Source of the DNA: Halorubellus sp. JP-L1
GTDB taxonomy: Archaea > Halobacteriota > Halobacteria > Halobacteriales > Natrialbaceae
Length of the DNA stretch: 64,000 nucleotides
Direction of reading: 5' to 3'
NCBI RefSeq assembly: GCF_011440375.1
Contig: NZ_JAAOIR010000002.1
Coordinates: 558,001-622,000 of the forward strand
The notes under the pieces are model-generated. The model saw only the letters and a program-made list of their open reading frames with translations. It had not been told where the DNA came from and did no database searches. The stretch's first letter is position 1. The number at the start of each line of letters is the position of its first letter. Shown piece by piece: positions 802 through 18,609 of the stretch. A program made the position numbers and the translations under genes.

Positions 802-1733
802 GCGCGCTCGCGGCGGTCGTCGTGGTCGCGGCGGCGGGCTTGGACGCGGCGGTCGGCGAACCGCCGGATCGCCTGCATCCGGTGGCGTGGTTCGGGCGCG
901 TCGTCGCGCTCGCGGACCGCGAGTGGGAGAACCCCGCGCTCGCGGGCGCGGCGGTCGCGGTCGCGCTCCCGCTCGCGGCGGCCGCGCTCGTCGCCGGCGT
1001 CGTGCTCGCGGTCGGGTACGTGCACGTGGCGCTGTCGGTCGTCGCGGCCGTTTTCGCGCTGTTTACGGCGACGAGCCGCCGGATGCTCCTCGCGCTCGCG
1101 CGGGACGTGGTGGCGGCGAGCGAGACCGACCTCGCCGTGGCGCGCGACGCGCTCCGCGGGCTCGCGGGGCGGGACGCGAGCGCGCTCTCGCCGGCGCAGG
1201 TGCGGTCGGCGGCCGTCGAGTCCGCGGCGGAGAACCTCGCGGACGGCCTCGTCGCGCCCCTGCTCGCGTTCGCACTCGCGCTCCCGTTCGGGGTCGCGGC
1301 CGGGGCGGGCGCGGCGGCGTGGGTGAAGGCCGTGAACACGCTCGACTCGATGCTCGGCTACCCCGGGAAACCCCACGGGACGGCGAGCGCGCGCCTCGAC
1401 GACGCGGTGATGTGGGTGCCGGCGCGGCTATCCGCCGGCCTGCTCGCGTTCGCTGGCGGGCGACCGGGCGCGCTCGCCGCGGCTCGCGAGTGGCTCGCGG
1501 GCGTGCCGTCGCCGAACTCCGGGTGGCCGATGGGGGCGCTCGCCGGGACCGTCGGCGTGCGACTGGAGAAACCCGGCGTCTACGTCCTGAACCCAGAGGA
1601 GCCGCTACCGTCGGCGGCGGTCGCCCGGCGCGCGCTCGCGGTCGTCGACCGCGCCGGCTGGCTCGCGGTCGCGTCCGCGGCGGCGCTCGCGCTCGCGGTG
1701 CCGACGCCACCGGAGGTGCTCGCGCTCCCGTGA
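798..1733 (+). CDS. cbiB: adenosylcobinamide-phosphate synthase CbiB
   Basis: A 311-residue polytopic membrane protein of the CbiB/CobD family, which joins aminopropanol phosphate to adenosylcobyric acid. Recognisable blocks are the N-terminal LDAAVGEPPDRLHPVAWFGR, the central SAAVESAAENLADGLVAPL, the conserved KAVNTLDSMLGY and the C-terminal PSPNSGWPMGALAG. Several Ala/Leu/Val membrane segments separate them. Length is normal for the family. The GTG start overlaps the HAD stop and its own stop overlaps the cobS start. It supplies the cobinamide phosphate used by cobY. Confidence 0.95.
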   Translation: MSALAAVVVVAAAGLDAAVGEPPDRLHPVAWFGRVVALADREWENPALAGAAVAVALPLAAAALVAGVVLAVGYVHVALSVVAAVFALFTATSRRMLLALARDVVAASETDLAVARDALRGLAGRDASALSPAQVRSAAVESAAENLADGLVAPLLAFALALPFGVAAGAGAAAWVKAVNTLDSMLGYPGKPHGTASARLDDAVMWVPARLSAGLLAFAGGRPGALAAAREWLAGVPSPNSGWPMGALAGTVGVRLEKPGVYVLNPEEPLPSAAVARRALAVVDRAGWLAVASAAALALAVPTPPEVLALP

Positions 1734-2590
1734 CGGGCGTCCTCGCGACCGGCGTCCGGGCGTTCGCGGGCGCCCTCGGCACGGGAGTGCGAGCGGTCGC
1801 GGGCGCGCTCGGGTTCCTGACGCGCGTCCCGGTGGGTCGCGACGGGGACGCGTGGGCGGCGTTCGCGGCGCACCCGGCGGCGGCGGTCGTCCCGGGGTAC
1901 GTCGTCGGCGCGCTCGCCGGCGCGGTCCCGGCGCTCGCGCTCGCGTTCGCTCCCGGCGTGCCGGCGGCCTCGGTCGCGCTCGCGTACGTCGTCGGCGTTT
2001 ACGCGCTCGTCGGCATCAACAACCTCGACGGCGTCGCGGACTGCGGGGACGCGATGGTCGTCCACGGCGACGCCGAACGCCGGCGCGACGTGCTCGCGGA
2101 CACGACGACGGGCGTGGGGGCGCTCGCCGCGGTCGCGCTCGTCGTCGCCGGGCTCGCGCTGGGCGCACTCGCGCTCGCCGGCACCGACCCGCTCGTCGCG
2201 TTTGCGGTCGCGCTCGCCGCCGAGGTCGGCGCGCGGACGGGGCTCGCGGCGCTCGCCGCGGTCGGGGATGCACCCCACGACGGCCTCGGGCGCACCATCA
2301 CGGACGGCGTCGGCCCGGGAACGCTCGTCGTCGCGCTCGCGCTCGCCGTACCAGCGCTCGCCGCACCCGCGGTCTCCGTGCCGCTTCTGACTGACAGTTC
2401 GAACGAAGCAGTCGCCGTCGCGGTCGCTGCGCTGGGGGCGTTCGCGGGCGCGCTCGCCGGAACGGGCGCGGTCGGCGCGTGGGCGCAGCGTCGCCTCGGC
2501 GGCCCGAGCGGCGACGTCTTCGGTGCGGCGACCGAGGTGGCGCGCGTCGTCGGCCTCCACGCGGGGGTGATCGCGTGGACGCTCTCGTGA
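1730..2590 (+). CDS. cobS: adenosylcobinamide-GDP ribazoletransferase (cobalamin synthase) CobS
   Basis: A membrane transferase that condenses adenosylcobinamide-GDP with alpha-ribazole phosphate. The signature region is [19 protein letters not shown], with the acidic metal-binding residues near residue 100, and the conserved GFLTRVPVG occurs near the N-terminus. Several hydrophobic segments follow. The open frame extends far upstream, but the GTG overlapping the cbiB stop gives 286 residues, close to family size; the upstream frame is Arg-rich shadow sequence. The 3' end overlaps cobY by 16 bases. Confidence 0.93.
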
Positions 2591-3225
2591 TGTGCGGCGG
2601 CGCGGGCACGCGCCTGGACGTCGACGTCGAGAAGCCGCTGTTCGAGGTCCGGGGGCGGGCGATGGTCGACCGCGTCGTGGACGCGCTCGACGCCGCGGAC
2701 GCAGTCGGGGGCGTGTACGCGGCGGTGTCGCCGCGGACGCCCGCGACCCGCGAGCACCTCGCCGCGCGCGACGACGTCGCGGTCGTCGACACGCCCGGCG
2801 ACGGCTACGTCGCGGACCTCGACCGCGCGCTCGACGCCGTCGGACGGCCCGCGGTGACCGTCGCCGCGGACCTCCCGCTGCTCGCGCCCGAGCACGTCCG
2901 GCGGGCGCTCGACGCCCGCGACCGGGCTGGACGCGAGCGTGCCGACCGCCAGCACGACGTAGCCGCCGACGCGGACGCACCGAACGCCTCGCTGTCGGTG
3001 TGCGTCCCGGTCGCGCTCAAGGAGCGACTCGGGGCGAGCGTCGACTCCTCCGTCGACGGCCTCGCACCGACGGGTTTGAACGTCGTCGACACCGGAGGAG
3101 ACACAATGCATACGACCTACGACGCTCGACTGGCCGTGAACGTGAACAGGCTCGCAGACGCCGACCTCGCCGCTGCGCTCGCGGGGCCGGACGAGACGTC
3201 GTCGCGCACGGAGGGCGAGCGATGA
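2575..3225 (+). CDS. cobY: adenosylcobinamide-phosphate guanylyltransferase CobY
   Basis: A GTP-dependent nucleotidyltransferase (216 residues), the archaeal non-orthologous replacement of bacterial CobU. The N-terminus [20 protein letters not shown] carries the G-rich nucleotide-binding loop and the conserved Lys of the MobA/CobY fold; [10 protein letters not shown] is the metal-binding Asp region; a family-typical [10 protein letters not shown] lies near the C-terminus. The GTG start lies inside the cobS 3' end; an internal ATG at 2590 is also possible but would cut the first strand. It makes adenosylcobinamide-GDP, the substrate of CobS. Confidence 0.93.
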
Positions 3226-4208
3226 GGGTCGTCCTCGCGGCGGGGTCGACGGAGACCGCGCGCATCGAGGGGCTCAGTGCCGCGGGCGCGGACGCGGAGG
3301 CGATGGCGCACACGCCGGGTGCGGACGCGGAAATCCTCGCGTACGGGGATGTCGTTCGCGCGCCGTCGGTGCCGGTGTCGCCGACGGGGACGCCGACGCC
3401 GGCGGTCGTGACGCGCGCCGCGCGCGAGGTCCTCGGGTTCGACGCGACGGTCGTCGACGCCGGCCTCGTGGAACCGACGGGCGCGCCGACCGTGACCGTC
3501 GGTGCGCGCGCCGGTGGAGACATCCGGGAGGCCGACCCGGTGTCGACGGCCCCAGGCGCGTACGCGGCGAGCATCCGACTCGGGCGTTCGCTCCCCGACG
3601 ACCACCTCGTGCTCGCCGAGACCGTCCCGGGCGGGACGACGACCGCGCTCGGCGTCCTCCGGGCACTCGGTGAGGACGTCTCGGTGTCGTCGTCGCTCCC
3701 GACGAACCCCATCGAACGCAAGCGCGAGGTCGTCGCCGAGGGTCTCGCGGCGAGCGGGCTCGACGCCGGGGACTGCGAGGGCGACCCGCGCGCGGCGGTG
3801 CGGCGGATGGGCGACCCGGTGCTCGCGACGCTCGCGGGCGTCGCGACTGGCGCGCTCGACGCCGGGAAGCGCGTGACGCTCGCGGGCGGCAGTCAGCAGC
3901 TCGCGGTCGCCGCGCTCGTCCGCCACGGCGGCGCGACCGGGCCACTGGACGTGGCGACGACGAGCTACGTCGCGGACGACGACGGCGTCGCGTTCCGCGA
4001 GACCGCTCGTCACTTCGACTGCGAGCCGACCGTGACCGACCCGCAGTTCGACCGCGCGCACGTCGGCTTCGGCGGGTACGTCGGCGGCGAGGCGAAGGAG
4101 GGCGTCGGCATGGGTGGCGCGCTCGCGCTCGCGACGGAGACCGGCGACCTCGCCGCGGTCCGCGAGCGCTCCCTCGCCGTCTACGACCGCCTGACGGAGG
4201 GCGAATGA
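3222..4208 (+). CDS. cobT: archaeal CobT, nicotinate-nucleotide:dimethylbenzimidazole phosphoribosyltransferase family
   Basis: A 328-residue protein of the archaeal CobT branch (TIGR00303/UPF0284 type), expected to activate the lower-ligand base as alpha-ribazole phosphate for CobS. Seen features are [19 protein letters not shown] at the N-terminus, the [15 protein letters not shown] segment, [14 protein letters not shown], and a Gly-rich [19 protein letters not shown] close to the C-terminus. It begins with an ATG that overlaps the cobY stop by four bases, giving strict translational coupling. Confidence 0.9.
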
Positions 4209-4238
4209 GGGGGTCGCGACTGCGCTCTGGAGAGGTGC

Positions 4239-5315
4239 GTGCGCGTGCTCCCTGAGGCGGTCGACGACGCCGAACGCGTCCCCCACGGCGGGACCGGGGA
4301 CCGCGACCTCCTGGAGTTCTCCGCGAACGTCAACCCCGAGCGGCCCGACGGCGTCCGCGCGACGTACGCGGACGCGCTCGACGGAGCCGACCGGTACCCG
4401 GACGACGACTACCCCGCGTTCCGCGCGGCCGCCGCGGCGTACGCGAGTCGCGCGTCCGAGCGCGACGTCGAACCCGCCGATGTCGTGCCGACGCCCGGCG
4501 GGCTCGCCGCCATCCGGCTCGCGATCGCGACGACCGTCGAACCCGGCGACCGGGTCGTCGTTCCCACGCCGTCGTTCGGCGAGTACGTTCGCGAGGTCGA
4601 CCTCGCGGGCGCCAGCGCCGAGTTCGTCCCGTACCGGGAGGTCGTCGACCTGGACGCCTCGGCCCTGGCGTCGGTCGCGCTGGTGATCGCGTGCAACCCG
4701 AACAATCCGACGGGGGACGCGTACGACGCGGACGCGCTCCGCGCGCTCGCCGCTCGCTGCCGGGATGCGGACACCGTCTTGCTCGTCGACGAGGCGTTCC
4801 TCGGATTCGCCGCGGAGCCGTCGCTCGCGGGCGAACCGGGCGTGATCGTCGCGCGTTCGCTCACGAAGCTGTTCGGGCTCCCGGGCCTGCGCGCGGGGTT
4901 CGCGGTCGCGACCGGACGCGAGCGCGACCGGCTGGCGACGGCCCGTCGCGCGTGGAACCTGGGCGCGCCCGCGGCGGCTGTCGGCGCACACTGCCTGCGC
5001 GACCGCGCGTTCGTCGCCGCGACCCGCGAGCGCGTCGCCGCCGAGCGCGAGCGCATCGTGGACGGTCTCCCCAGGGGCGTCGACGCGGTCGCCGCGGAAG
5101 CTGGTCGCGACGGCGTCGCACCGTTCGTCCTGCTCGACGTCGACGCGACGGGGCTCGCGGCCGACGCGGTCGTCGCCGGCTGCCTCGAGCGCGGCGTCGC
5201 GGTCCGGGACGCGACGACGTTCCGTGGCCTGGACTCGCACGTCCGCGTCGCCGTCCGTACCCCCGACGAGAACGACGAACTCCTGTCCGTGCTCGCGGCG
5301 GTGGTCGAGTCGTGA
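4239..5315 (+). CDS. cobD: threonine-phosphate decarboxylase CobD (PLP aminotransferase fold)
   Basis: A fold-type I PLP enzyme of 358 residues, related to HisC, that makes aminopropanol phosphate for CbiB. Seen are the N-terminal EFSANVNPERPDGV, the cofactor-binding CNPNNPTGD, LLVDEAFLGF with the ring-stacking Asp, and SLTKLFGLPGLRAGF with the Schiff-base Lys near residue 210, followed by the conserved phosphate-binding Arg. A histidinol-phosphate aminotransferase is the main alternative, but the cob context decides. A 30-base gap separates it from cobT and it overlaps cbiZ. Confidence 0.9.
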   Translation: MRVLPEAVDDAERVPHGGTGDRDLLEFSANVNPERPDGVRATYADALDGADRYPDDDYPAFRAAAAAYASRASERDVEPADVVPTPGGLAAIRLAIATTVEPGDRVVVPTPSFGEYVREVDLAGASAEFVPYREVVDLDASALASVALVIACNPNNPTGDAYDADALRALAARCRDADTVLLVDEAFLGFAAEPSLAGEPGVIVARSLTKLFGLPGLRAGFAVATGRERDRLATARRAWNLGAPAAAVGAHCLRDRAFVAATRERVAAERERIVDGLPRGVDAVAAEAGRDGVAPFVLLDVDATGLAADAVVAGCLERGVAVRDATTFRGLDSHVRVAVRTPDENDELLSVLAAVVES

Positions 5316-6112
5316 CCGGCGAGGAGCCCTCCGCGGAGTCGCCGCTGTTCGACGCGGCGATCCGCGACGATGACGTCCTCGAACTCGCACGCCAGGATAC
5401 GACGTGGCTGTCGACGGGCTGGCGCGGCGGGCGGACGACGGCGGACGCGGCGTACTGCCTGACGGTCCCCGAGGGCTGGGCGTGCGAGGACCTCGCGTGG
5501 TTCGTCGACGATCGACTCCGCGAGCGCGACGTCGACCCCGAGCGGGTCGCGGCAGCGGCCGGCGGGGACGCGCCCGTGCTCCTCACTGGCGTCGCGATGC
5601 GCCACGCACGCGGCGCGCGCCTCGGCCCGGTGGAGGCGTACGCGACCGCGGGCGTCTCGAACCCGGCGGCGCTCCCCACGGAGCCCGACGCGCTCCGGGA
5701 ACCAGCCGTCGCGAACGGCGGGGACGGCGAGCGAGACGACGGCCTGCCGGACGGCGAGTACGTGCCGGGGACGGTGAACGTCGTCGTCGGCACGACCCGC
5801 GACCTGGCGCCGGGGGCGCTCGCGAACCTCGTCGCGGTCGCGGCGGAGGCGCGCGCGACCACGCTCCTCGACCGCGTCGGATTTCCAGGGACGACGAGCG
5901 ACGCGGTCGTCGCCGCGTGCGACCCCGACGGCGACCCGGCGGCGTTCTCCGGGAGCGCGACCCGCGTCGGCGCCGCGGCACGCGCCTGCGTCCGGGAGGC
6001 CGTCGGCGCCGCGCTCGACGCGCGCTACCACGAGGACGACCCGCCGGCGTCGGTCGACGACGCCCGGTACGGGGTCCGAAACGACTCCAAAGCAATCGTC
6101 TTCGAGCCCTGA
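5312..6112 (+). CDS. cbiZ: adenosylcobinamide amidohydrolase CbiZ
   Basis: A CbiZ-family salvage enzyme (266 residues) that cleaves the aminopropanol arm of adenosylcobinamide to give adenosylcobyric acid, which CbiB can use again. Family blocks visible are DTTWLSTGWRGGRTTADAA, VLLTGVAMRHARGARLGPVEAYATAGVSNP in two pieces, PGTVNVVVGT and the GFPGTTSDAVVAAC segment. The GTG start overlaps the cobD stop. It is the last gene of the operon; a T-rich tract follows about 50 bases downstream. Confidence 0.9.
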   Translation: MTGEEPSAESPLFDAAIRDDDVLELARQDTTWLSTGWRGGRTTADAAYCLTVPEGWACEDLAWFVDDRLRERDVDPERVAAAAGGDAPVLLTGVAMRHARGARLGPVEAYATAGVSNPAALPTEPDALREPAVANGGDGERDDGLPDGEYVPGTVNVVVGTTRDLAPGALANLVAVAAEARATTLLDRVGFPGTTSDAVVAACDPDGDPAAFSGSATRVGAAARACVREAVGAALDARYHEDDPPASVDDARYGVRNDSKAIVFEP

Positions 6113-6615: not shown

Positions 6616-7392
6616 ATGGTCGAAGCCATCGCCGTCGCGAGCGGGAAGGGCGGCACCGGGAAGACGACCGCCACGCTCGCGCTCGGGATGGCGCTCGCCG
6701 ACGACGGGCACGACGTCACGGTCGTCGACGCCGACACCGGCCTCGCGAACCTCCTCTTCCACGCCGGCCTCGACGACGCGCCGACGACGCTCCACGACCT
6801 CCTCGTCGGTGACGACGACGTCGCCGTCGCCGACGCCACCTACGACCGCTTCGGGATGGCCGTCGTCCCCTGCGGCACCGACCTCGCGGCGTTCGAGGCC
6901 GCCGATCCCGACCGGCTCGCCGACGTCGTCGAGGAACTCGCCGGCGACACCGACGTCCTCCTCCTGGACTCGCCCGCGGCACTCGGCTCGAAGTCCGCCG
7001 TCCTCCCCGTCGTGCTCGCCGACCGCATCGTGGTCGTCCTCCAGCCGACGATCCCCGCGCTCAGCGACGGCCTGAAGGTCCACGAGTACGCGCAAGCGTA
7101 CGGTACCGACACCGCGGGCGTCCTCTACAATCGCGTGCACGACCCCGGGGACGTCGACGGCGTCCGCGAGCAGACCGAGCGGTACTTCGACGCGCCCGTG
7201 CTCGGGAGCGTCCCCGCCGCCGACGCCGTCCGCGAAGCGAGGGCGGCGGGCGAACCGCTGCTCGCGCACGCGCCGTCGTCGCCGGCCGCGGCCGCGTTCC
7301 GCGACGCCGCCGCCGCGATCGACCTCGCGGACGGCGACGAGGACGCGGTCGCCGACCGGTTCGCGAGCGCGGTCGTCCCCGACCGGCCATGA
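6616..7392 (+). CDS. MinD/ParA-family P-loop ATPase
   Basis: A 258-residue deviant Walker A ATPase. It begins MVEAIAVASGKGGTGKTTAT with the KGGTGKTT signature, has the Mrp/MinD VDADTGLANLLF block (switch region) and LLLDSPAALG as Walker B. Haloarchaea have several MinD paralogues; some position archaella or chemosensory arrays, others have unknown roles. The C-terminus is Ala/Asp-rich and lacks an obvious MinD-type amphipathic membrane helix. The ATG has a TATA-like sequence about 25 bases upstream. It overlaps the next gene by four bases, so the two products probably work together. Confidence 0.9.
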   Translation: MVEAIAVASGKGGTGKTTATLALGMALADDGHDVTVVDADTGLANLLFHAGLDDAPTTLHDLLVGDDDVAVADATYDRFGMAVVPCGTDLAAFEAADPDRLADVVEELAGDTDVLLLDSPAALGSKSAVLPVVLADRIVVVLQPTIPALSDGLKVHEYAQAYGTDTAGVLYNRVHDPGDVDGVREQTERYFDAPVLGSVPAADAVREARAAGEPLLAHAPSSPAAAAFRDAAAAIDLADGDEDAVADRFASAVVPDRP

Positions 7393-7934
7393 AGCTCCCG
7401 CGCGGCGACCTCGTCGCGTCCCGCGTCGTCGACGACCACGCGGACGCGCTCGCGGACGCCCTCGACGAGACGCTCTCGGGGTACGTCGTCCTGGAGCCGA
7501 GCGCGACCCTCTTGCTCGGCGACGACGGTGCGGGCGTGCTCACCGTCCGCGACGGCGTCCCCGTCCTCGCCTCGCACACCGGCACCGGGAGCGGCGGCGC
7601 GAGCGCGCTCGCGGACCTCGCCGGCCCCGGCCCGGTGCAGGTCGAGTACCGCGCGGTCGACGCCGACGCGCTCGCGGGCGTCCACGACGCGGACGGCGTC
7701 GACGCGCTCGCGGTCCCGCCCGGCGAACCGGCGCGCGTCCTCGCGGGCGACGACGCCCTCGCCGACCGCACCCGGGACCGCGCCGACCCCGACCATCCCG
7801 GTCGCGACCGCGAAGCGGACCCGCTCGCCGCGTTCCTCGACGACCCCGAGCGCGTCGAGGCGCTCCGCGAGGACGCCCGCGCGGAGGCCGAACGCCGCGC
7901 CGAGGAGTGGGGGTTCGCCGACGAACTCTCCTGA
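7389..7934 (+). CDS. uncharacterised haloarchaeal protein coupled to the MinD-like ATPase
   Basis: A 181-residue acidic protein that I do not recognise as any characterised family. It has an alternating strand/loop N-terminal half (for example VVLEPSATLLLGDDGAGVL) that looks like a small beta-rich domain, and a C-terminal charged helix ending RAEERAEEWGFADELS-like. No cysteine motif, signal peptide or membrane segment is present. The ATG overlaps the stop of the MinD-like gene, implying a functional partnership, perhaps as cargo or activator of the ATPase; this is inference from position only. Confidence 0.8.
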   Translation: MKLPRGDLVASRVVDDHADALADALDETLSGYVVLEPSATLLLGDDGAGVLTVRDGVPVLASHTGTGSGGASALADLAGPGPVQVEYRAVDADALAGVHDADGVDALAVPPGEPARVLAGDDALADRTRDRADPDHPGRDREADPLAAFLDDPERVEALREDARAEAERRAEEWGFADELS

Positions 7935-8058
7935 CGGCCGAGCACGCGACCACGCGAGCAAGCGACCGCGCGACGAGCGAACCGAGGCGCGCGCGAACGG
8001 CTTCGGAAGGGGAACCGGCGGCAAGCTACTTGTGGATTCGTCGCGTTGCTCGGAGCGA

Positions 8059-8820
8059 ATGCACCTGGCGGCGTTCGTGGACGACCTCGAGGCGCCCGAA
8101 GTATCGCTGACGGTCGTGAACGTCGACGGCGTCGGGAGCGAGCACGTCGCCGGGATGTTCGAGGACCTCTTCGAACGCCAGTCCGTCGCCGTCGAGACAG
8201 TCGTCGATGCGGCGCGAGACGAGAACCTCGTGCTCCTGGAGCGAGACGGCGAGCGCGTCGCCGAGTCCGCGCTCGCCGACGTCGGGAACGCCGTCCTGTT
8301 CGTGAACTCGGACGTCTACATCTCGGGGTCGCGCGAACTCGCCGAGGTGGAGACGCCCGCGGTCCTCGCGGCCCTGACGGACGTCCCGTTCCGGGCGACG
8401 GGGTATCCGTCGACGCGCAAAGAGAAGTTCCTCCTCGTCGAGATCTCGCGGTTCATCGAGGCGCGCGCGTACCGCGAGGGCGCCGGTCGCCTGCACTCGG
8501 GGTTCCAGCGACTCTCTCGCATCGACGACGAGAAGGGCACGCAGACGGTGTACGAGACGCTCGCGGCGACGGACGTCGACACGCACGTGTACGGGGCCGG
8601 GGACTGGACGCCATCGGGGTCGCTGTCGGCGCACTCCGGCCACCCGGACCTGAACGAGGTGTGGTTCGTCGTGTACGTCCCGCCCGAGGGCGCCGAGACC
8701 GATCACGCGGCGCTCGTCTGCGTCGAGACCGACGCGGGTCACTGGCGGGGATTCTGGACGTTCGACGCCGAGCGCGTGCGGCCGATCGAGTCGTTCGTCG
8801 TCGACGAGTACCAGTCCTGA
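8059..8820 (+). CDS. DICT-domain sensory protein
   Basis: A 253-residue soluble protein that matches the haloarchaeal DICT domain type, a predicted sensory domain first noted in diguanylate cyclases and two-component proteins and linked to light responses. Visible conserved parts include the FVNSDVYISGSRELAEVETP segment, RATGYPSTRKEKFLLVEISR, LSRIDDEKGTQTVYETLA, and a C-terminal VYGAGDW...ETDAGHWRGFWTFD region rich in Trp. No DNA-binding domain is present. gctacttgtgg lies about 27 bases before the ATG. Only 25 bases separate it from the longest form of the LOV kinase frame, so they are likely co-expressed. Confidence 0.8.
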   Translation: MHLAAFVDDLEAPEVSLTVVNVDGVGSEHVAGMFEDLFERQSVAVETVVDAARDENLVLLERDGERVAESALADVGNAVLFVNSDVYISGSRELAEVETPAVLAALTDVPFRATGYPSTRKEKFLLVEISRFIEARAYREGAGRLHSGFQRLSRIDDEKGTQTVYETLAATDVDTHVYGAGDWTPSGSLSAHSGHPDLNEVWFVVYVPPEGAETDHAALVCVETDAGHWRGFWTFDAERVRPIESFVVDEYQS

Positions 8821-8962
8821 GAGGCGGCGGCGGACGACTGCTGCCGTGGTCATCGAACGACTACCGCCGGACTCGCGAATCGAACGTAGCGCCGATAGCC
8901 GAAGCGCATTACTTGGCCGAGCGCGTTCGGCGGAACGTGATACCGATCGGTCGGCCGACGAC

Positions 8963-10927
8963 GTGCCGCAGTCGAGTTCCGCGACACCACCGCCGCCCTC
9001 GGCGGCGAGGTGCGTCGGCGTGACGGTCGAGCACGCCGTCGCCGCCGGCCAGCCGGCAGTCGTCCTTGCCTCGGACGCGCTCGCCGATGCGCTCGAGGAC
9101 GCCGCCGTACCCGAGGCCGAACGGACGCTCGAGACGAGACTCGTCGGCGCGGACCGCCTCTCGGACGGCGTCGACGCCGGTGGCGTGGACTGCGTCGTCC
9201 TCACGCCCGAGGACCCCCTCGACCCGATCGCGACCGCCGCCGCCATCCCCGTCGTCTACTACGCACCGCGAGACGGGCTGGACGCCGAGCGCGTCCGCGA
9301 ACTCGCGGCCGCCGACCGCGTCGACTACGTCCCGGCGAACGACGACGCCGGCGACCACGCGCTCCTCCGCAGTCGCGTCGCCGAACGCGTCGCCACCGAA
9401 CGCGTCCGCCAGGACCGGGACGTCCGTGCCGCCGCGATGGACCAGGCCGGCGTCGGCATGACCGTCGCGACCGCCGCCGACCCCGACCTTCCGATCGTCT
9501 ACGCCAACGCCGTCTTCGAGACCATCACGGGCTACGCTGCCGACGAGGCGCTCGGGCGGAACTGTCGGTTCCTCCAGGGCGAGGACACCGACCGCGAGCA
9601 GGTCACGGCGCTCCGCGAAGCAATCGACGACGAGGTGTCCCGGACCGTCGACCTCCGGAACTATCGCGCGGACGGCACGCCGTTCTGGAATCGCGTCACC
9701 GTCGCACCCGTCTACGACGACGGCGACGTCAGTCACTACGTCGGCATCCAGAGCGACGTCACCGAGGAGGTCGACGCGCAGCGCGCACGCCAGCGACTGG
9801 TCGAAGTCACCGCCGACCCCGAACTCGACTTCGAGTCGAAGGTCGACGCCCTCCTGGAACTGGGCTGCGAGCGTTTCGACGTCGACGTCGGATTCCTGTC
9901 CGCGATCGACGACGAGTTCGAGGTCGTCGCCGCGGACAGCGCACACCCCGGTCTCCAGCCGGGCGAGACCGAACCGATGTCGACGACGTACTGTCGGCGC
10001 ACCATCGCCGCCGACGAACCGCTCGCGGTCGAGGACGCCGCCGACGAGTGGAGCGACGACCCCGCGTACGAGCGCTGGAACCTCGCGTGCTACGTCGGCG
10101 CGAAGGTCGAGGTCCGCGGCGAGCTGTACGGGACGCTGTGCTTCGCGGATACCACGCACTCGCGGCCGTTCACGGACGCGGAGAAGACGTTCGTCGAACT
10201 GCTCGCGACGTGGGTGAGTTACGAGCTCGAACGGCGCGAGCGCGAGGCGCGACTGGAGCGCGAGAACGAGCGGCTCTCGGAGTTCGCGAGCGTCGTCAGT
10301 CACGACCTCCGGAACCCACTTACGATCGCGAAAGGCCACCTGGAGGTGCTCGCCGCAGGCAATGCGGACGACGCGACCGTCGACGAGATCGCGGGCTCGC
10401 TCGACCGCATGGAGCAACTCATCGAGGACGTCCTGACGCTCGCGCGCGACGGCGAGGTCGTCGACGACCCCGAAGTGGTGAGTCCGTCGACCGCCGCGAC
10501 GGAGGCGTGGCGAGTGATCGACGCGGACGCGACGCTCGACGTCGACCCCGACCTCCCACACGTTTCGGCCGACCCGGAGCGCCTCCGGACGGTGTTCGAG
10601 AACCTGTTCCGGAACAGCGTCGAGCACGGCTCGACAGGCAGTCGGACGCAGTCCGGTGACGCGGTCGAGCACGGCGACGCCACCCGGATCGCGGTCGGTG
10701 TCGACGGAGCGACGCTCTACGTCGAGGACGACGGCTCGGGGATCCCCGAGAGCGAACGCGACGACGTCTTCGAGCACGGGTTCACGACGAACGAGGACGG
10801 CACCGGCTTCGGGCTCGCCATCGTCGCGGAGATCGCTGACGCCCACGGCTGGACCGTCTCGCTCGCCGAGAGCGACGACGGTGGGGCGCGCTTCGAGTTC
10901 GAGGGCGTCGAGTTCGTCGACGACTGA
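8963..10927 (+). CDS. LOV-GAF hybrid sensor histidine kinase (putative blue-light receptor)
   Basis: From the GTG used here it is 654 residues; the frame is open back to an ATG at 8846, but those extra residues are Arg-rich and unlike the rest. Order: a degenerate receiver-like region (about 1-150), a PAS domain with the complete LOV signature GRNCRFLQGEDTD in which Cys201 would form the flavin adduct, plus NYRADGTPFWN and GIQSDVTEEV that complete the flavin pocket; a GAF domain (about 285-435); HisKA with SHDLRNPL and phospho-acceptor His447; and HATPase_c with N box LFRNSVEH, DDGSGIP and GTGFGLAIV. No response regulator is adjacent. Family knowledge makes this a flavin photoreceptor kinase; its output target is unknown. 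Confidence 0.88.
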   Translation: MPQSSSATPPPPSAARCVGVTVEHAVAAGQPAVVLASDALADALEDAAVPEAERTLETRLVGADRLSDGVDAGGVDCVVLTPEDPLDPIATAAAIPVVYYAPRDGLDAERVRELAAADRVDYVPANDDAGDHALLRSRVAERVATERVRQDRDVRAAAMDQAGVGMTVATAADPDLPIVYANAVFETITGYAADEALGRNCRFLQGEDTDREQVTALREAIDDEVSRTVDLRNYRADGTPFWNRVTVAPVYDDGDVSHYVGIQSDVTEEVDAQRARQRLVEVTADPELDFESKVDALLELGCERFDVDVGFLSAIDDEFEVVAADSAHPGLQPGETEPMSTTYCRRTIAADEPLAVEDAADEWSDDPAYERWNLACYVGAKVEVRGELYGTLCFADTTHSRPFTDAEKTFVELLATWVSYELERREREARLERENERLSEFASVVSHDLRNPLTIAKGHLEVLAAGNADDATVDEIAGSLDRMEQLIEDVLTLARDGEVVDDPEVVSPSTAATEAWRVIDADATLDVDPDLPHVSADPERLRTVFENLFRNSVEHGSTGSRTQSGDAVEHGDATRIAVGVDGATLYVEDDGSGIPESERDDVFEHGFTTNEDGTGFGLAIVAEIADAHGWTVSLAESDDGGARFEFEGVEFVDD

Positions 10928-11571: not shown

Positions 11572-12111
11572 TCACACGACGACGTCGACGATCGTCTCGC
11601 CGTCGGGCGTCGTGACTGTCACTTCGAACGCGACGGCGAGCACGGTGGTCTCGCCGGCTCTCTCTTGCACGACGACGCCGTCGATGGCCTCGCAGTCGCC
11701 GAACGCGCGACCGTCCCCGCTCGGGCAGTGCTCGCGAGCGTACGCGCTCGCCGCGTCCTGGTCGTAGTCGACGGCGTACGCGGTGCCCTTCGCAACTCGA
11801 GCGGTCCGGAGCGAGTCCAGGGCCGTCTCGAGGTCGTCGCGGACCGCCTCGGCGACCGCGTCGCGGTCGCCCCAGGGTTCGCCGGTGTGAGTGACGCGGG
11901 CATCGTCCACGGCGCGCTCGAGGACGCCGACCGCGCGGTCGGTCGCCTCGCGCGGCCCGACGTCGCGCTCGGCGGCGACGTCCGGGTGCGCGCCCAGCTG
12001 GAGGAACGCGGCGGTCATCGCGAGCAGCGCGACCGCGACCACGCCCGCCGCGGCGAGCACGAGCTGCGCGCGATCGTCGTCGCGCACCGATCCCGTCAGT
12101 CTACGGCTCAT
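11572..12111 (-). CDS. small membrane-anchored pilus-cluster accessory protein (DUF7261-like)
   Basis: 179 residues with one N-terminal hydrophobic segment (about residues 16-38, LVLAAAGVVAVALLAMTAAF) preceded by DDDRAQL and followed by an acidic extracytoplasmic domain. The R-A-Q-L sequence before the hydrophobic stretch looks like the reduced prepilin-type context of this cluster. Last gene of the minus-strand pilus operon; the ATG overlaps the preceding stop by four bases. The DUF number is recalled and unchecked. Probably a minor pilin-like or assembly component. Confidence 0.8.
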   Translation of the reverse strand: MSRRLTGSVRDDDRAQLVLAAAGVVAVALLAMTAAFLQLGAHPDVAAERDVGPREATDRAVGVLERAVDDARVTHTGEPWGDRDAVAEAVRDDLETALDSLRTARVAKGTAYAVDYDQDAASAYAREHCPSGDGRAFGDCEAIDGVVVQERAGETTVLAVAFEVTVTTPDGETIVDVVV

Positions 12112-12560
12112 GCGTACCACACTCGGATCGTGACGTCGCCGTACCTGGTCGGGACGGTCGCGACGCCGACGGCGACGCCGTCCGGCGGGTCGTAGCCGAC
12201 CGCGCCGTGGGGCGTCCGCACCTGGAACATGACGTTCTCGGGGAGGACGTCGACGACGCGCCGCTCGAGCGCGTCGCGTTCGCGCTCGAACGCGCTCGGG
12301 GAGCGCGCGACCTCCGCGAGCCGCGTCCCGCCGGCGTGGCGCGGACTCTCGCCGGAGAGCACGGTCGCGGCGTCCGCAGCCGTCCGATCGAGCGCGGCCG
12401 CGTCCCGGTCGGCCGCCGGCACGCCCGCGAGGAACGACCCGAGCGCGCCGAGGACGAGCAGGACGCCGACCGCCCCCTCGACCGCCGACAGCGACAGCTG
12501 GCCGCGGTCACAGCCGTCGCCCGCCGACGGTCTCGTCGTTCGCAATCCGTCACTCGACAT
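12108..12560 (-). CDS. pilus-cluster accessory protein with one N-terminal TM (DUF7262-like)
   Basis: 150 residues. DRGQLSLSAVEGAVGVLLVL is a Q-L-S-L-S type hydrophobic N-terminus similar to archaeal pilin-like proteins in which the hydrophobic helix follows a short charged leader; an extracytoplasmic domain of about 100 residues follows, ending VTIRVWYA. It overlaps both neighbours (11 bases with the upstream gene). Function is inferred from the operon alone. Confidence 0.8.
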   Translation of the reverse strand: MSSDGLRTTRPSAGDGCDRGQLSLSAVEGAVGVLLVLGALGSFLAGVPAADRDAAALDRTAADAATVLSGESPRHAGGTRLAEVARSPSAFERERDALERRVVDVLPENVMFQVRTPHGAVGYDPPDGVAVGVATVPTRYGDVTIRVWYA

Positions 12561-13239
12561 CGACGGTCACCTCCACGACGACCTTCCGCGAGTCCGCGGG
12601 CGCGTACGTGACCTCGACCGCGCCCGTGTCGAGGTCGTCGCCCGCGAACGCGAGCACTGGCGTGACGCGCCGGGAGACGTCCACGCGGTACCGGCCGCTC
12701 GCGAGGCCGTCCGGGTCGTGGAGGACGACGCGGTCGTTCGCGCGCACCGTCGTCACCTCGCCCGCGGCGGGCGTCAGGTCGATCGCGATCCACGGCGTCC
12801 GTCGGGGGAGGGTGACGCGGTCGCGGCCGTCGAGACCGGGCGTCACCGTCCGTGCCTCGCGGTCGACGACGAGCGCGATCCGCGAGACGGTCGTCCCGCC
12901 GGCGACGTCGCCGGTCGACGCGACCGTCTCGCCGTCGACGCGCACGCGGACGTCCGCGTCCTCGGGGACCGCGTCGAGGTCCCGTAGCGCGGCCGCGTCG
13001 AGCGATCCGAGGCGGGTCGCGTTCAGGGCGTTCTCGCGCTCGGCGAGCGCGCCGTCTGCTGCGAGGACGCGGTCCGCGACGGCGTTCGCGCGCTGGCGCT
13101 CGACGGGCTCGCGGGTCGCGTCCGCGAGCGCGCCGTCCGCGACGACGACCGCGACCGTCGACACCGTCGTCAGCGCGACCAGCGCCGCGACGAGCGCGAG
13201 GAGGTTCGCCTGCGCGCGCCGCTCGCTCCTGTCCAGCAC
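12550..13239 (-). CDS. pilus-cluster accessory protein (DUF7263-like)
   Basis: 229 residues: RRAQANLLALVAALVALTTV forms an N-terminal membrane helix beginning directly after R-R-A-Q-A-N-L, followed by a long Ala/Arg/Asp helical stretch and then a beta-rich domain (TVSRIALVVDREARTVTPGL and later VTPVLAFAGDDL). The arrangement is like a pilin or pseudopilin: helix then globular head. It sits between two similar small proteins, starting directly after its upstream neighbour. Not characterised to my knowledge. Confidence 0.8.
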   Translation of the reverse strand: MLDRSERRAQANLLALVAALVALTTVSTVAVVVADGALADATREPVERQRANAVADRVLAADGALAERENALNATRLGSLDAAALRDLDAVPEDADVRVRVDGETVASTGDVAGGTTVSRIALVVDREARTVTPGLDGRDRVTLPRRTPWIAIDLTPAAGEVTTVRANDRVVLHDPDGLASGRYRVDVSRRVTPVLAFAGDDLDTGAVEVTYAPADSRKVVVEVTVDVE

Positions 13240-13746
13240 TTACCGGCCCTCCAGGCGGACGACGAGTCCGCCGGGCGTCGACTCGACGACGATCACGACC
13301 GCGTCGCCGCTCCGGGCTTCGCCCGCGACGCGGTCGACCGCGTCCGGGAGTGCGAGCGGGACGGTCCGGGAGAGCGAGTCGTCGGGGTGATAGAGGACGA
13401 GTTCGCCACCCTCGAGCCGGACACGGTAGGCGTCGCCGCGGATGGTGCGCGGGACGTCGACCTCGTGCTCGACCGCGACGGCGACCACGCCGCCGTCGTC
13501 GGCGACGCCGCGGTCGGTCGTCGCCGGCACGGCGGACTCGACGTCCGTCGCCAGCGCCGCCGTCGTCCGGTCCGCGACCGAGTCCGCCGTACTCGCGCGG
13601 TACTCCGGGAGCACGCCGCCGTAGAACGTCGACACGAGCAGGCCGACGTAGAGCGCGAGCAGGCCGAGTTCGAGCGTCTTCCCGACGACCGACGACAGCG
13701 CCCGGTCGTCGCCGGCGAGCGCCGTCGGTGCGGGTGGTCCGCTCAC
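13240..13746 (-). CDS. pilus-cluster accessory protein (DUF7266-like)
   Basis: 168 residues from a GTG start that overlaps the stop of the upstream gene; the open frame runs further upstream but becomes Arg-rich there. DDRALSSVVGKTLELGLLAL is the characteristic start, where ALSSVVGKTLEL resembles the conserved pilin-like entry to a TM helix (about residues 17-42, ending YVGLLVSTFYGG). The rest is an acidic beta-rich domain. Adjacent small proteins share the same plan, so these are likely co-assembled. Confidence 0.8.
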   Translation of the reverse strand: MSGPPAPTALAGDDRALSSVVGKTLELGLLALYVGLLVSTFYGGVLPEYRASTADSVADRTTAALATDVESAVPATTDRGVADDGGVVAVAVEHEVDVPRTIRGDAYRVRLEGGELVLYHPDDSLSRTVPLALPDAVDRVAGEARSGDAVVIVVESTPGGLVVRLEGR

Positions 13747-14498
13747 GGCGCCACCTCCAGGTCGAGCGCGTGCACGACGAGATGGAGGCGACGCGACCCC
13801 GGGAACGACGCGACGACGCTCTCGACGCCGTCGCCGTCGACGTCGCGGGTGTCGACGGTCGCGCCGAGGGACTCGAAGTAGCGCCGCCAGGGGCCGGGCG
13901 TCGTCGTCTCCACGGCGAGGCGGTACGCGTCCGCGGGGAGCGTCTCCCGGTCGTGCTCGACGTCGACGGCGAGCGACGCCCGACCGCGGCCGCCGACGGC
14001 GTACTCGCCGCGTGCGCCGCTGGAGGCGTCGGGACCGAGCGCGGGCGCGCCGACGAGCAGGTCGTCCTCGCCGACCGCGATCGGCGGGTCCTCGACGAGC
14101 CACGCGTTCCCGGCGTTACCGCGGACGACGGCGCCGGCGAGGTACGCGACGCGGCGGTCGCCGGCCTCGAAGACGAGTGCGTCCGAGCGAACCCGACGGA
14201 CCACGTCGCCGTCGCCGTCGAGGACGCGGACGTCGCGCTCGACCGTCGACAGGTGGCCGTCGGCGAACGCGACCCGTTCGGTCCCGGGCCCGGTCCGCGA
14301 GACGGCGTCGACGTCCGCGAACGCGTCCGCGGCCCGGTCGGCGTCCGCGCGAGCGACCCCCGAGTCGACCGTGGAGCCGACGCCAGCGGTCACCGCCGCC
14401 ATCGCGACGACGGTCACGCCGAGCAAGAGCGCGACGCCGACGACGTGGGACTGCGCGCTGTCCCGGACGGGCACACCGGGTGCGTCCTCGCGAGTCAT
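13743..14498 (-). CDS. pilus-cluster pilin-like protein (DUF7289-like)
   Basis: 251 residues. After VRDSAQSHVVGVALLLGVTV comes one TM helix (about residues 16-40) and an extracytoplasmic beta-rich domain with YAVGGRGRASLAVDVEHDRE and a C-terminal FPGSRRLHLVVHALDLEV strand pair. The A-Q-S-H-V-V-G-V entry is like other haloarchaeal pilin-like proteins (S-x-x-V-G-x-x-L). First of five accessory genes; its ATG overlaps the stop of the PilC-like gene. Confidence 0.82.
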   Translation of the reverse strand: MTREDAPGVPVRDSAQSHVVGVALLLGVTVVAMAAVTAGVGSTVDSGVARADADRAADAFADVDAVSRTGPGTERVAFADGHLSTVERDVRVLDGDGDVVRRVRSDALVFEAGDRRVAYLAGAVVRGNAGNAWLVEDPPIAVGEDDLLVGAPALGPDASSGARGEYAVGGRGRASLAVDVEHDRETLPADAYRLAVETTTPGPWRRYFESLGATVDTRDVDGDGVESVVASFPGSRRLHLVVHALDLEVAP

Positions 14499-16318
14499 AG
14501 CAACCCTCCGAGGGAGAAGACGACGTACGCGAACGCGACGAGCAACCCGGAGTGCAGGAGCGCGTCGTACGTCCCGCGGCTGGCGGCGCCAGCGAACCAG
14601 CCGGAGGCGAGCATCGTCGCCTGCGTGACGACGTAGAACCGCCGGTGCTCGCGCGCGACGTCCACCGCGTCCGGGTCGAGGACGAACCCCGTCCCGGGCG
14701 TCGACACCGCCGAGAGTTGGGCGAACGAGTCGAGGACGTAGAGGTTCACGGCGACGACGATGCCGACGACGAGTATCGCGGTCGTCCAGCCGACGGCGGC
14801 GTACACGAGCATCTCGTCGCGCATCGACTGCTTCTCGTGGTGGAGCCGGCCGACCTCGGTCTGGAGCGTCTCGAAGACGGTCTCCGTGTCGCTGCCGGCG
14901 TCGAGCGCGCCCGTGACGAGCCGCATCGTCTGCTCGCTGAGGGGCGTGCCGACGCGCGCGACGAACCGGTCGAGCGCCGCCGTCCGCAGGTCGCCGTCCG
15001 TGCTCGTGAGGCCGGCGGCGAACGCGAGGTCGGCGACGTCCCCGTCGAGCGGCCCGAGGTCGACCTCGTCGGCGACGCGCGCGACGGCGTCCGGGAACGG
15101 CCGGCCGAGCGAGACGTGCCCGGAGACGGCGTGCACGAAGTCCTTGAGCTCGCGGTCCTTCGCGTCGTCCCGACGCGCGCGCCGGGTCGCGACCACGCCG
15201 ACCGGGACGGCGTACGCGACGTACCCGAGGGTCGCCGCGACGAGCAGGGAGCCGCCGGTCGCCCACGCGACGACGGCGGCGCTCGCGGCGAACGGAACGG
15301 CGACGACCGCGGCGCTCGCGGGATTCGAGAGCGCGGTCGCGAACGACTCCACGACGCCGGGCGGTCGCTCGTAGCTCGGCGTGACCGCGACCGGCCGGAG
15401 GGACACGACGACCGCGGCGGCGAGCGCGCCGACGGCGGCGACGAACACCGCGGCGCCGTACACGATCATCGCTCGCGGCGTCACCCCACCGAGTGGCGGC
15501 CCGATCGGCTGGTTCAGGCTCGGCGTCAGCACGCTCATCACGGACAGCACGACGACCAGCAAGGCGGGGAGGACGAGCAGGACGACGAACAGTTCAGCGA
15601 CGAGTTCGAGGAACCCGCTCGCGCGCTCGCGCTCCCTGGCCTGCCGGTGCCCGAGCATCCGACTCTCCATCCGCAGGTACCGCGAGAGCTCCTCGGGGCC
15701 CTGGGTCGCGTGCTCGCGGAACTTCATGAGGAACGGCGCGAGCGTGTCCTGGCTCGGCGTGTCGCGCGCGACGAGCCTGAGGCCCTCGTTCAGGCTCCCG
15801 GTGAGTTCGGCCTTCGCCAGCACCGCGCCCGCGGCCTCGGCGGTCGCGCCGTACGCGTCGTCGTTCTCGGCGACCTTCGCGAGCATCGTCCGCCGGTCGT
15901 CCGTCCCCGTCGAGAGCGCGCGCAGATACCGGACTGCGCCGGGGAGCGTCCGCTGGATGCCGATGCGGCGAGCGCGAGCGCGCCACGCCAGGTACCGGCC
16001 GCCGAGCGTCGTCGTCGACCGATGCGCGAGGGCGGCCGCGAGCACGCCCACGCCGCCGCGGACGACGACCGCAGGGACCGCGGAGACCGCGTCGGGCGCC
16101 GGGACGAGCGCGACCGGCACGAGCACCGCCGCGGTCGGTGCGGCGAGCGCGGCCAGCAACCACGCGAGCGCGTGCAAACGGGCGACGAACACGTCGAACG
16201 CGATCTCGACGCCCGCGCCACGGTACCGATCGCGGTCGCGCTCGTGCCGCCTCGCGTCCGCGCGCCGAGAGAACAGCGCGTACGCGGCCCTGTCCAGCGC
16301 CGACAGCGGCCGCGTCAC
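14495..16318 (-). CDS. type II secretion/type IV pilus membrane assembly protein (PilC/TadC-like, T2SSF)
   Basis: 607 residues with a tandem architecture: two T2SSF cytoplasmic helical domains, each followed by TM helices. RRIGIQRTLPGAVRYLRALS opens the first, and the second holds KDFVHAVSGHVSLGRPFPDAVARV. At least seven hydrophobic segments are visible, including LVAELFVVLLVLPALLVVV. The GTG start overlaps the PilB stop exactly as GTGA. It would be the inner-membrane platform on which the PilB ATPase acts. Confidence 0.9.
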   Translation of the reverse strand: MTRPLSALDRAAYALFSRRADARRHERDRDRYRGAGVEIAFDVFVARLHALAWLLAALAAPTAAVLVPVALVPAPDAVSAVPAVVVRGGVGVLAAALAHRSTTTLGGRYLAWRARARRIGIQRTLPGAVRYLRALSTGTDDRRTMLAKVAENDDAYGATAEAAGAVLAKAELTGSLNEGLRLVARDTPSQDTLAPFLMKFREHATQGPEELSRYLRMESRMLGHRQARERERASGFLELVAELFVVLLVLPALLVVVLSVMSVLTPSLNQPIGPPLGGVTPRAMIVYGAAVFVAAVGALAAAVVVSLRPVAVTPSYERPPGVVESFATALSNPASAAVVAVPFAASAAVVAWATGGSLLVAATLGYVAYAVPVGVVATRRARRDDAKDRELKDFVHAVSGHVSLGRPFPDAVARVADEVDLGPLDGDVADLAFAAGLTSTDGDLRTAALDRFVARVGTPLSEQTMRLVTGALDAGSDTETVFETLQTEVGRLHHEKQSMRDEMLVYAAVGWTTAILVVGIVVAVNLYVLDSFAQLSAVSTPGTGFVLDPDAVDVAREHRRFYVVTQATMLASGWFAGAASRGTYDALLHSGLLVAFAYVVFSLGGLL

Positions 16319-18609
16319 GACCACCCTCCGTCGCTCTCTGGAGTACCACTCCCGTAGCCGTCCTGTGCGTCGGTACAGTCGCCGTCCTGTGCGTCGGGAC
16401 CGGTATCGCCGCTGGCGCGTGCGGCGACGGTCGCGGCGGCGTCCGTTCGGAGGTCCGCGACGAGCGAGAACAGTTCGTCGACGTCGCGGACCTCCGAACG
16501 GACGAAGTGCTGGACGTACCGGTGCTTGCGGTGGAACTCGTCCTCGACCGCGTCGACCGTCCGGTCGGTCCGTCGCGCGACGGTCTCGAAGACGGCGTGC
16601 TCGCACGCCCTCGCGGTCGCGTCCTCGTGCAGGTCCGGGTGGTGGTAGGCGAGTTCGAACGTGCCGTCGGGCGTCCGCGACAGCACCTCGTTGTAGTACA
16701 CCGTCGCGTCGTCCTTCTCGACCGACCCCCGCGGGCCCGTGCACGACTCGTAGGTCGCCTCGTCGACGAACTCGACGACGCGCCCGACGTACCGCTCGCC
16801 GTCGACGTGCCGCGGGAACACCACGAGGTCCAGTTCAGCGAGCAGGTAGCTCGGGAGGCCCTGCTCGACGACGCGGTTCACGAGCTTCTCGACGCTCTCG
16901 GCGTGCGTCGTCCCGACGACGCCGTGGCCCGTGTTCAGGGTCTCCGCGAACGTCGCGAACGACTCCGGCGTGTTGACTTCGGCGATCACCTCCACGTCCG
17001 GGTTGAGGTAGTTCGTCTCCGTCATGAGGTCCGCCATCGTCACGCGCTTGTACGGCGTCTGGTGGTCCCGCGTCGTGAGCGACACCCCGGTCTCGTGGGG
17101 AAGCGATACCTCCCTCGACCCCTCGTCGATACTGACCGGGCGGTGGTCGAACGGCACGAACGGCATGTGGGCGTTCATGAGCGTCGTCTTCCCGACGCCC
17201 GTGGGGCCGGAGAACAGGACGACGCCGTGGTGCTCGTAGAGCATCCACAGCAGCGCGACGAGGTCCGCGGGGAGCGCGTCGCGCTCGAGGAGGTCGACGG
17301 GCGACAGCGAGTCCGCGGCCTGCTTGCGGATGGAGACGTGCGGGCCGCCTTCGCTGACGACGGGGAGCGCGACCGCACAGCGCACGGTCTCGTCGGTGCC
17401 GACGTCGAGGTTCACCTTCGCGCTCGGATTCGACGCGGTGAGTTCGACGCCGTCGCTCGCGGCGAGTTGCGTGACGACGTTCACGAACGACGCCTCGTCC
17501 TCGAACGCGAGGTTCGTCGGGACACGGCCGTCGTGGAGGTCGCTCCGCGGGACGACCTTCACGCGCTCGCCGACCCTGTTGGCTTCGACGTCCTCGAGGT
17601 TCGGGTCGTGGATCGGGACGGTGAGTTCGCCGTGGCCGACGTAGTCCCGGAGGACGTAGTAGACGAGGTCCTCGAGGCGGTCGCCGCTGTAGCGTTCGTC
17701 GACGGGTGGGAGCACGAGGTCGCGTTCGGCGAGCGCTTCGCGGACGCGATGCCGGGCGGCGTCCAGCCACGCGCTCGCCGAGCGCGCGTTCAGGGCGCGT
17801 TCGAGGTAGCGTTCCGCGCGGTCGCGGACGAGCGAGACGCGGTCGACGTCTGGCGTGGTGACGGCGTGCTCCCAGACGCGGTCCTCGCACGCGTCGACCA
17901 GTTCGCGGTCGCCCGGGAGGAGGTCGGGTTCGAGGACCGCGTACCGCGTGTTGAACGCGTCGCCGCCGACGGCGTGCTCGCGGTAGAGCACGACCGGAAT
18001 CTCGTAGGTCTCGAAGGAGACGGTGTAGCGCGCGAGGCGCTCGCTCGCGAACCGCCCGAGGCCGTCGACGTCCGCGTCGAGGCTGGTTGTGGCGGGCGCG
18101 AACCGGTCGGTGTGGACGCGGAGGGCGTCGTCCTCGACGTCGGCGACCTGGACGCGGTCGTCGAGCGCGAGCGGCGTGAGGTCTCCGAGACAGCGCAGAT
18201 CGCGGAGGAGGTGGTAGCGGACGCGGCGTTCGGCGGCCGGGGTCAGGTCGACGAGCCGCGAGACGACGCGCTCGTGCTTGCCCGTGAACCCCTCCGCGAG
18301 GCGGTCGCGGGCGGCCTCGCGCGTCCGAGGTGGTTGGAGGTTCGCGTCCTCGAAGTACGCTCGGACGCGGTCGACGACCGCTCGCTCGTCGGGACCGACC
18401 CCGGGTTCGCGGACGTCGTACGCGAAGCCGTCCTCGGTCTCGCGGACGGTCGCGACGACGTCGTCCGCGACGCGGTACTGGGCGCGGACGTCGGGTGCGT
18501 ACCACGCGTCGGGATCGTGGGGCGGGACGGGCGGTGGGACGTCCGCGGATTCGTCGCGGGCGGCGTCGTCGCCGTCCGTCGGGAGTTCGAGGGTCGGCGC
18601 GTCGGTCAT
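16315..18609 (-). CDS. type II/IV secretion ATPase (PilB/TadA-like)
   Basis: 764 residues from the ATG used here. Walker A SGPTGVGKTTLMN (Lys474), an acidic Walker B region with VIAEVNTPESFA, and a GTTHAES His box are present. The long N-terminal half is typical of archaeal PilB proteins of surface-filament systems. Upstream, aatttaag reading on the minus strand is centred 29 bases before this ATG, which favours it over one seven codons earlier. The last 20 residues contain a short duplication (DAQDGDC then DAQDGYG). First gene of a seven-gene operon. Confidence 0.93.
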   Translation of the reverse strand: MTDAPTLELPTDGDDAARDESADVPPPVPPHDPDAWYAPDVRAQYRVADDVVATVRETEDGFAYDVREPGVGPDERAVVDRVRAYFEDANLQPPRTREAARDRLAEGFTGKHERVVSRLVDLTPAAERRVRYHLLRDLRCLGDLTPLALDDRVQVADVEDDALRVHTDRFAPATTSLDADVDGLGRFASERLARYTVSFETYEIPVVLYREHAVGGDAFNTRYAVLEPDLLPGDRELVDACEDRVWEHAVTTPDVDRVSLVRDRAERYLERALNARSASAWLDAARHRVREALAERDLVLPPVDERYSGDRLEDLVYYVLRDYVGHGELTVPIHDPNLEDVEANRVGERVKVVPRSDLHDGRVPTNLAFEDEASFVNVVTQLAASDGVELTASNPSAKVNLDVGTDETVRCAVALPVVSEGGPHVSIRKQAADSLSPVDLLERDALPADLVALLWMLYEHHGVVLFSGPTGVGKTTLMNAHMPFVPFDHRPVSIDEGSREVSLPHETGVSLTTRDHQTPYKRVTMADLMTETNYLNPDVEVIAEVNTPESFATFAETLNTGHGVVGTTHAESVEKLVNRVVEQGLPSYLLAELDLVVFPRHVDGERYVGRVVEFVDEATYESCTGPRGSVEKDDATVYYNEVLSRTPDGTFELAYHHPDLHEDATARACEHAVFETVARRTDRTVDAVEDEFHRKHRYVQHFVRSEVRDVDELFSLVADLRTDAAATVAARASGDTGPDAQDGDCTDAQDGYGSGTPESDGGWS

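Follow-up and report, generated by a model that had tools for sequence, protein, structure and literature searches.

A LOV histidine kinase gene adjoining a stand-alone DICT gene in Halorubellus: a candidate blue-light sensing pair

The window, that is, the whole stretch of 64,000 nucleotides of Halorubellus sp. JP-L1 DNA analysed here, carries a gene coding for a stand-alone DICT-family protein followed, on the same strand, by a gene coding for a LOV histidine kinase (Table 1). The open reading frame of the kinase opens at position 8846, but coding statistics do not mark the initial 58 codons as coding sequence. The gene caller starts the kinase at the GTG codon at position 9020, and the orthologue of the sister species Halorubellus salinus begins at the same codon (MSVDYAVETGQPAVVLAS vs. 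MTVEHAVAAGQPAVVLAS). Since coding statistics and the start of the sister orthologue agree, this GTG was taken as the start, and therefore the kinase has 635 residues and is separated from the DICT gene by 199 nt, not by 25.

Table 1. Features of the DICT and LOV kinase genes (window coordinates)
Feature	Position	Strand	Basis
TACTTG, putative core of the DICT promoter	8027..8032	+	H. salinus conserves the block GAACCGGCGGCAAGnTACTTGTG
Stand-alone DICT-family protein, 253 aa	8059..8820	+	Homology; AlphaFold2 model, pLDDT 91.7; fold search
GCATTACT, weak candidate for a kinase promoter element	8907..8914	+	CATTACT common to the sister species upstream of the kinase
LOV histidine kinase, 635 aa	9020..10927	+	GTG start; Pfam domains, coding statistics, sister orthologue
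Receiver-like N-terminal domain, no clear phosphoacceptor site	9053..9385	+	(Beta-alpha)5 pattern in the model, weak profile match
LOV domain, C182 and all flavin-contact residues	9422..9790	+	Match to phototropin LOV1, fold search
GAF domain	9833..10225	+	Pfam PF01590, E = 6.7e-12
HisKA phosphoacceptor domain	10274..10450	+	Pfam PF00512, E = 4.5e-14; H box SHDLRNP at 10298
HATPase domain	10571..10900	+	Pfam PF02518, E = 2.4e-19

The kinase is composed of receiver-like, LOV, GAF, HisKA and HATPase domains, in this order. Pfam models of PAS, GAF, HisKA and HATPase domains match the protein, the last three exceeding the Pfam cut-offs, and the H, N, G1, F and G2 boxes are all intact. Judging from its residues and its predicted structure, the PAS domain belongs to the LOV type. 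The signature described in the earlier note was located piece by piece: GRNCRFLQ, which includes the adduct-forming cysteine, at nt 9554-9577, NYRADG at 9659-9676, FWN at 9683-9691, and GIQSDVT at 9743-9763. The closest solved relative of this domain is the LOV1 domain of Chlamydomonas phototropin (E = 1.6e-30), and the alignment to it places all the flavin contacts, both phosphate-contacting arginines included (N181, R183, Q186, R199, N214, N224, and Q244). In the fold search, the kinase model matches LOV photoreceptors with Z values of 13.5-15 (best 15.2). The topology of the N terminus fits a (beta-alpha)5 arrangement in a model of medium confidence, the match to the receiver profile being weak and the fold-search list being filled by LOV domains. 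By sequence, the protein is a canonical LOV histidine kinase, convincing as a blue-light sensor.

Proteins of this type are not rare. The LOV motif is present in 228 of the 293 Halobacteriales genomes sampled (203 of the 255 good ones), and the window genome itself contains three. A catalogue of archaeal LOV kinases, with receiver, GAF and PAS units among their building blocks, dates from 2014 (Losi et al., PMC4844311), and a photocycle has been demonstrated for a canonical LOV domain from an archaeon (Valle et al. 2025, PMC12202551). The window kinase shares with these archaeal proteins the receiver-like, LOV, GAF and histidine kinase units as well as the canonical LOV cysteine; however, its receiver-like domain lacks an obvious phosphoacceptor, and the available excerpts of both papers mention no DICT neighbour. 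The LOV-HK of Brucella abortus, which is among the structural matches of the kinase model, likewise uses a LOV domain to drive a histidine kinase, whereas the window protein adds the N-terminal receiver-like domain and the GAF domain. Because the motif is so widespread in Halobacteriales and such architectures have been published, the kinase alone can be regarded, from its sequence features, as an ordinary member of an already-known type.

The upstream gene had been presented in the earlier note as a stand-alone DICT gene. This assignment holds through homology, although the protein is too divergent for the Pfam model: PF10069 does not match it up to E = 10, but 27 of the 29 members of its family are matched (best E = 8.8e-17), and the assignment holds for that reason. 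Five residues (R131, E134, F149, Q150, and W202) are invariant in all 29 members, and the identity of the window protein is 41-51% to most members of its subfamily and 30-33% to the divergent ones. As here, the haloarchaeal form of the family is stand-alone. DICT matches were found in 318 of the 345 good-quality haloarchaeal genomes sampled. The window genome possesses a second, divergent DICT gene (L074 5859-6563, G000:C4), which does match the Pfam model.

The AlphaFold2 model of the DICT protein, built from 60 input sequences, is confident. Residues ~100-253 of this predicted model resemble phospholipase-D-like domains and the domain with which the archaeal regulator TrmB binds its ligand (Z about 9-11), reaching a Z of 11.1 to TrmB 2f5t and TrmBL2 5box for the C-terminal 150 residues. 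In contrast to members of the TrmB effector/phospholipase D superfamily, to which its identity is ~10%, the DICT protein has neither the HKD motif nor a DNA-binding domain. Residues ~12-110 resemble thioredoxin with a Z of 7.5, a value near the level that can mean a common arrangement only. Neither the phospholipase HKD motif (HxKxxxxD) nor the thioredoxin CxxC motif occurs in any of 107 DICT members, which rules out an active phospholipase or thioredoxin. A response regulator is likewise ruled out: the protein has no receiver or phosphotransfer domain (Pfam detects no receiver), and the predicted fold is different. The label of two-component pair proposed earlier for the two genes is consequently not supported. 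Sequence searches retrieved no solved DICT structure and no match pointing to a phage or defence origin, and the literature searched contains no statement of a TrmB/phospholipase-D-like fold combined with a thioredoxin-like part for DICT. According to sequence and model, the protein is neither a receiver nor an evident enzyme; since both a receiver domain and catalytic motifs are missing, a ligand-binding or adaptor role would be the natural one to propose, and the predicted structure is best read as that of an accessory sensor or adaptor.

Sequences of the tacttg type had been noticed at promoter distance of both genes, an observation that is weaker for the kinase gene than for the DICT gene. 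The DICT element is situated 27-32 nt ahead of the ATG, within a stretch that H. salinus conserves; this spacing possibly fits a leaderless transcript, and the DICT gene appears to have its own promoter. The TACTTG at position 8910 lies 105-110 nt ahead of the refined kinase start, and the conserved part is only CATTACT. With nine copies of TACTTG in the window, the presence of the hexamer proves nothing on its own.

The scanned neighbours of the two genes include neither a receiver nor an HTH gene, in agreement with the earlier note, and a cognate response regulator gene is absent from the same set. Orphan kinases are common in haloarchaea, so that a missing adjacent regulator does not exclude a histidine kinase. 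The DICT gene is preceded by a gene coding for a MinD-like ATPase and by a 181-aa gene that belongs to no known family; these two overlap by 4 nt (window 6616-7934).

Halorubellus salinus GX3 is the only other Halorubellus genome found in the DICT-based search. It keeps both the DICT gene (79% identity) and the kinase gene (77%) on the same strand, 4.5 kb apart. The order MinD, 181-aa gene and DICT is preserved (88, 76 and 79% identity, respectively), and between DICT and kinase lie genes coding for a CBS-like protein, a BAT/HTH_10 regulator, a HalOD1 protein, a DUF3179 protein and a small membrane protein. The best match of the BAT/HTH_10 regulator in the window genome shows 43% identity, whereas the flanking genes show 73-88%, indicating that a gain or loss separates the two genomes at this place. 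The linkage of the exact gene pair of the window is, therefore, weak. The survey of LOV loci points in the same direction. The ~5-kb flanks of 116 LOV loci, taken from the Halobacteriales motif survey and from the two Halorubellus genomes, were read in six frames, and none of these 116 other loci has a DICT gene within 5 kb. A DICT-kinase operon conserved across Halobacteria is ruled out for the window kinase. The conservation of the pair across Halobacteria, suggested in the earlier note, was not found for this kinase, although the pairing recurs with another kinase lineage (see below); the absence of the DICT neighbour in related genomes, named there as an argument against the proposal, is what we find in part, namely for the lineage of the window kinase.

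By themselves, the LOV survey and the split in the sister species would make the window pair look like chance. A genuine LOV photoreceptor kinase might lie beside an unrelated DICT gene, the adjacency being fortuitous or neutral and the DICT gene belonging with the MinD-like and 181-aa genes, which stay together with it in H. salinus while the kinase is found 4.5 kb off behind five other genes. The 199-nt gap ahead of the kinase gene, which perhaps holds a promoter of its own, fits this explanation too. We consider it a serious contender, with a likelihood somewhat short of even. Against it, the two genes are on the same strand and within 5 kb of each other in both Halorubellus species, and pairs of this kind exceed chance expectation in other lineages.

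This recurrence was counted in a set of 80 loci taken by DICT similarity alone, the genome scan using the closer subset of the DICT alignment; the hypothesis of a DICT-LOV pairing had been fixed before the count by the earlier note. A LOV kinase gene lies immediately beside the DICT gene in two of them, in Haloplanus LUM.53 (L278) and Haloparvum sedimenti (L261). About 0.06 LOV neighbours would be expected (P about 0.002), assuming ~1.3 LOV genes per genome, as estimated from the survey, two neighbour positions and ~3,600 genes. With two LOV genes per genome P is still near 0.004, and for 109 loci the expectation is 0.08 (P = 0.003). The kinase of these two loci is a different, 470-aa PAS-LOV-HK protein; with the LOV domain left aside, its identity to the window kinase is 25-29%. 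A targeted search with this kinase and its DICT partner confirmed the pair in G088, first spotted by comparing lists, and added G373, G170 and G129; these four genomes are not unbiased counts. The kinase beside DICT is intact in G088, G170 and G373 and frame-broken in G129. In the latter genome, the PAS-LOV kinase is split into two reading frames and has an in-frame TGA (L327 6852-8298), its DICT neighbour being intact.

Apart from kinase-to-kinase matches, the paired loci of different genera have only the kinase and DICT genes in common. The kinase precedes DICT on one strand, with the exception of Haloparvum, where the genes are divergent. The DICT-LOV link is thus more than a case of one window, as it recurs with another kinase lineage and with other DICT branches, and this recurrence hints that DICT and LOV kinase work together. 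Kinase neighbours were seen for only seven of 110 DICT genes, and in genus g77 a paralogue group of the short kinase adjoins an ABC transporter instead of DICT. Two related genomes, G078 and G086, carry a more distant DICT gene beside a receiver-HalX regulator and a GAF/PAS histidine kinase (L042 9175-12696 and L043 1033-4451), and a second, closer DICT gene is located a few kb from the receiver-HalX locus.

In the DICT tree, which contains some long branches, LOV-paired members are spread over three or more distinct positions, namely those of Halorubellus, of Haloparvum and of the Haloplanus-type clade. The LOV tree joins the Halorubellus domain to those of two large proteins from G209 and G280 and keeps it separate from the PAS-LOV-HK clade. 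However, a single clade for both LOV-domain groups is not rejected by the tree test (p = 0.31), so that the independence of the two kinase lineages is not proven. Because the second lineage consists of a single kinase family, the strongest statement that can be made is that one PAS-LOV-HK family is linked to DICT genes of two branches, plus the Halorubellus case.

What the analysis shows is the sequence anatomy and the fact that DICT genes are found repeatedly beside LOV kinase genes. Our preferred reading, to which we give a probability of roughly 0.45, is that the window encodes a blue-light LOV kinase for which the DICT protein acts as accessory sensor or adaptor, the two being true partners in this Halorubellus. 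Blue light would induce a flavin-cysteine adduct in the LOV domain, as the intact residues suggest, and the signal would pass via the GAF domain to the HisKA and HATPase domains, altering autophosphorylation. The phosphate would then be transferred to a receiver protein encoded elsewhere. The DICT protein, devoid of receiver and catalytic site, could bind the kinase and/or a small ligand and so tune or gate the signal. A wider proposal is distinctly more tentative and, in our opinion, rather doubtful: LOV kinases and DICT proteins might constitute a haloarchaeal blue-light module, assembled repeatedly from different kinases and DICT branches, in which a non-catalytic DICT protein of TrmB/PLD fold would integrate a metabolite or redox cue with light.

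The DICT protein could instead be the output of the kinase, being phosphorylated by it or released from it to act on a Bat-type transcription regulator. The BAT/HTH_10 regulator and the HalOD1 protein encoded between the two genes in H. salinus, as well as the DICT gene beside the receiver-HalX and kinase genes in G078 and G086, would suit such a role. Nevertheless, we regard it as improbable: DICT has no receiver or phosphotransfer domain, and the in-between regulator of H. salinus lacks a window-genome orthologue above that 43% identity. It is very improbable that the LOV domain works in the cell as a redox or flavin-reduction sensor and not as a light sensor since, although LOV domains can signal by flavin photoreduction without the cysteine (PMC4682037) and related archaeal regulators such as Bat are described as redox-responsive (PMC4844311), the window kinase retains the cysteine together with every flavin contact, and the slow photocycle of an archaeal LOV domain is reported to be normal in salt of up to 3 M (PMC12202551).

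In the literature, the connection of DICT with light is a prediction only (PMC8612252), and a 2022 review places DICT among the sensory domains without discernible physiological purpose (PMC8846402). Our searches found no literature on DICT in Haloferax or on a DICT-LOV pair, and the DdfA cell-shape papers do not mention a DICT link. A recurrent pair with a photoreceptor kinase provides a concrete and testable partner for these widespread domains. If the kinase and DICT indeed form a blue-light module, this would be the first function for the DICT family, and a linked accessory protein would offer a handle on archaeal LOV kinases.

Other parts of the window deserve a brief mention. A run of genes at 798-6112 resembles a cobalamin salvage cluster (CbiZ, NTP transferase, aminotransferase, and others) and, in the part that was compared, is syntenic in the sister species. 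Downstream, on the minus strand, a type IV pilus or secretion-like cluster occupies positions 11572-18609 and includes a T2SSF protein and pilin-like DUF7261, DUF7263, DUF7266 and DUF7289 genes. A homologue of the window T2SSF protein (62% identity) is encoded near the Haloplanus kinase-DICT pair (L278 9299-10696), possibly by chance.
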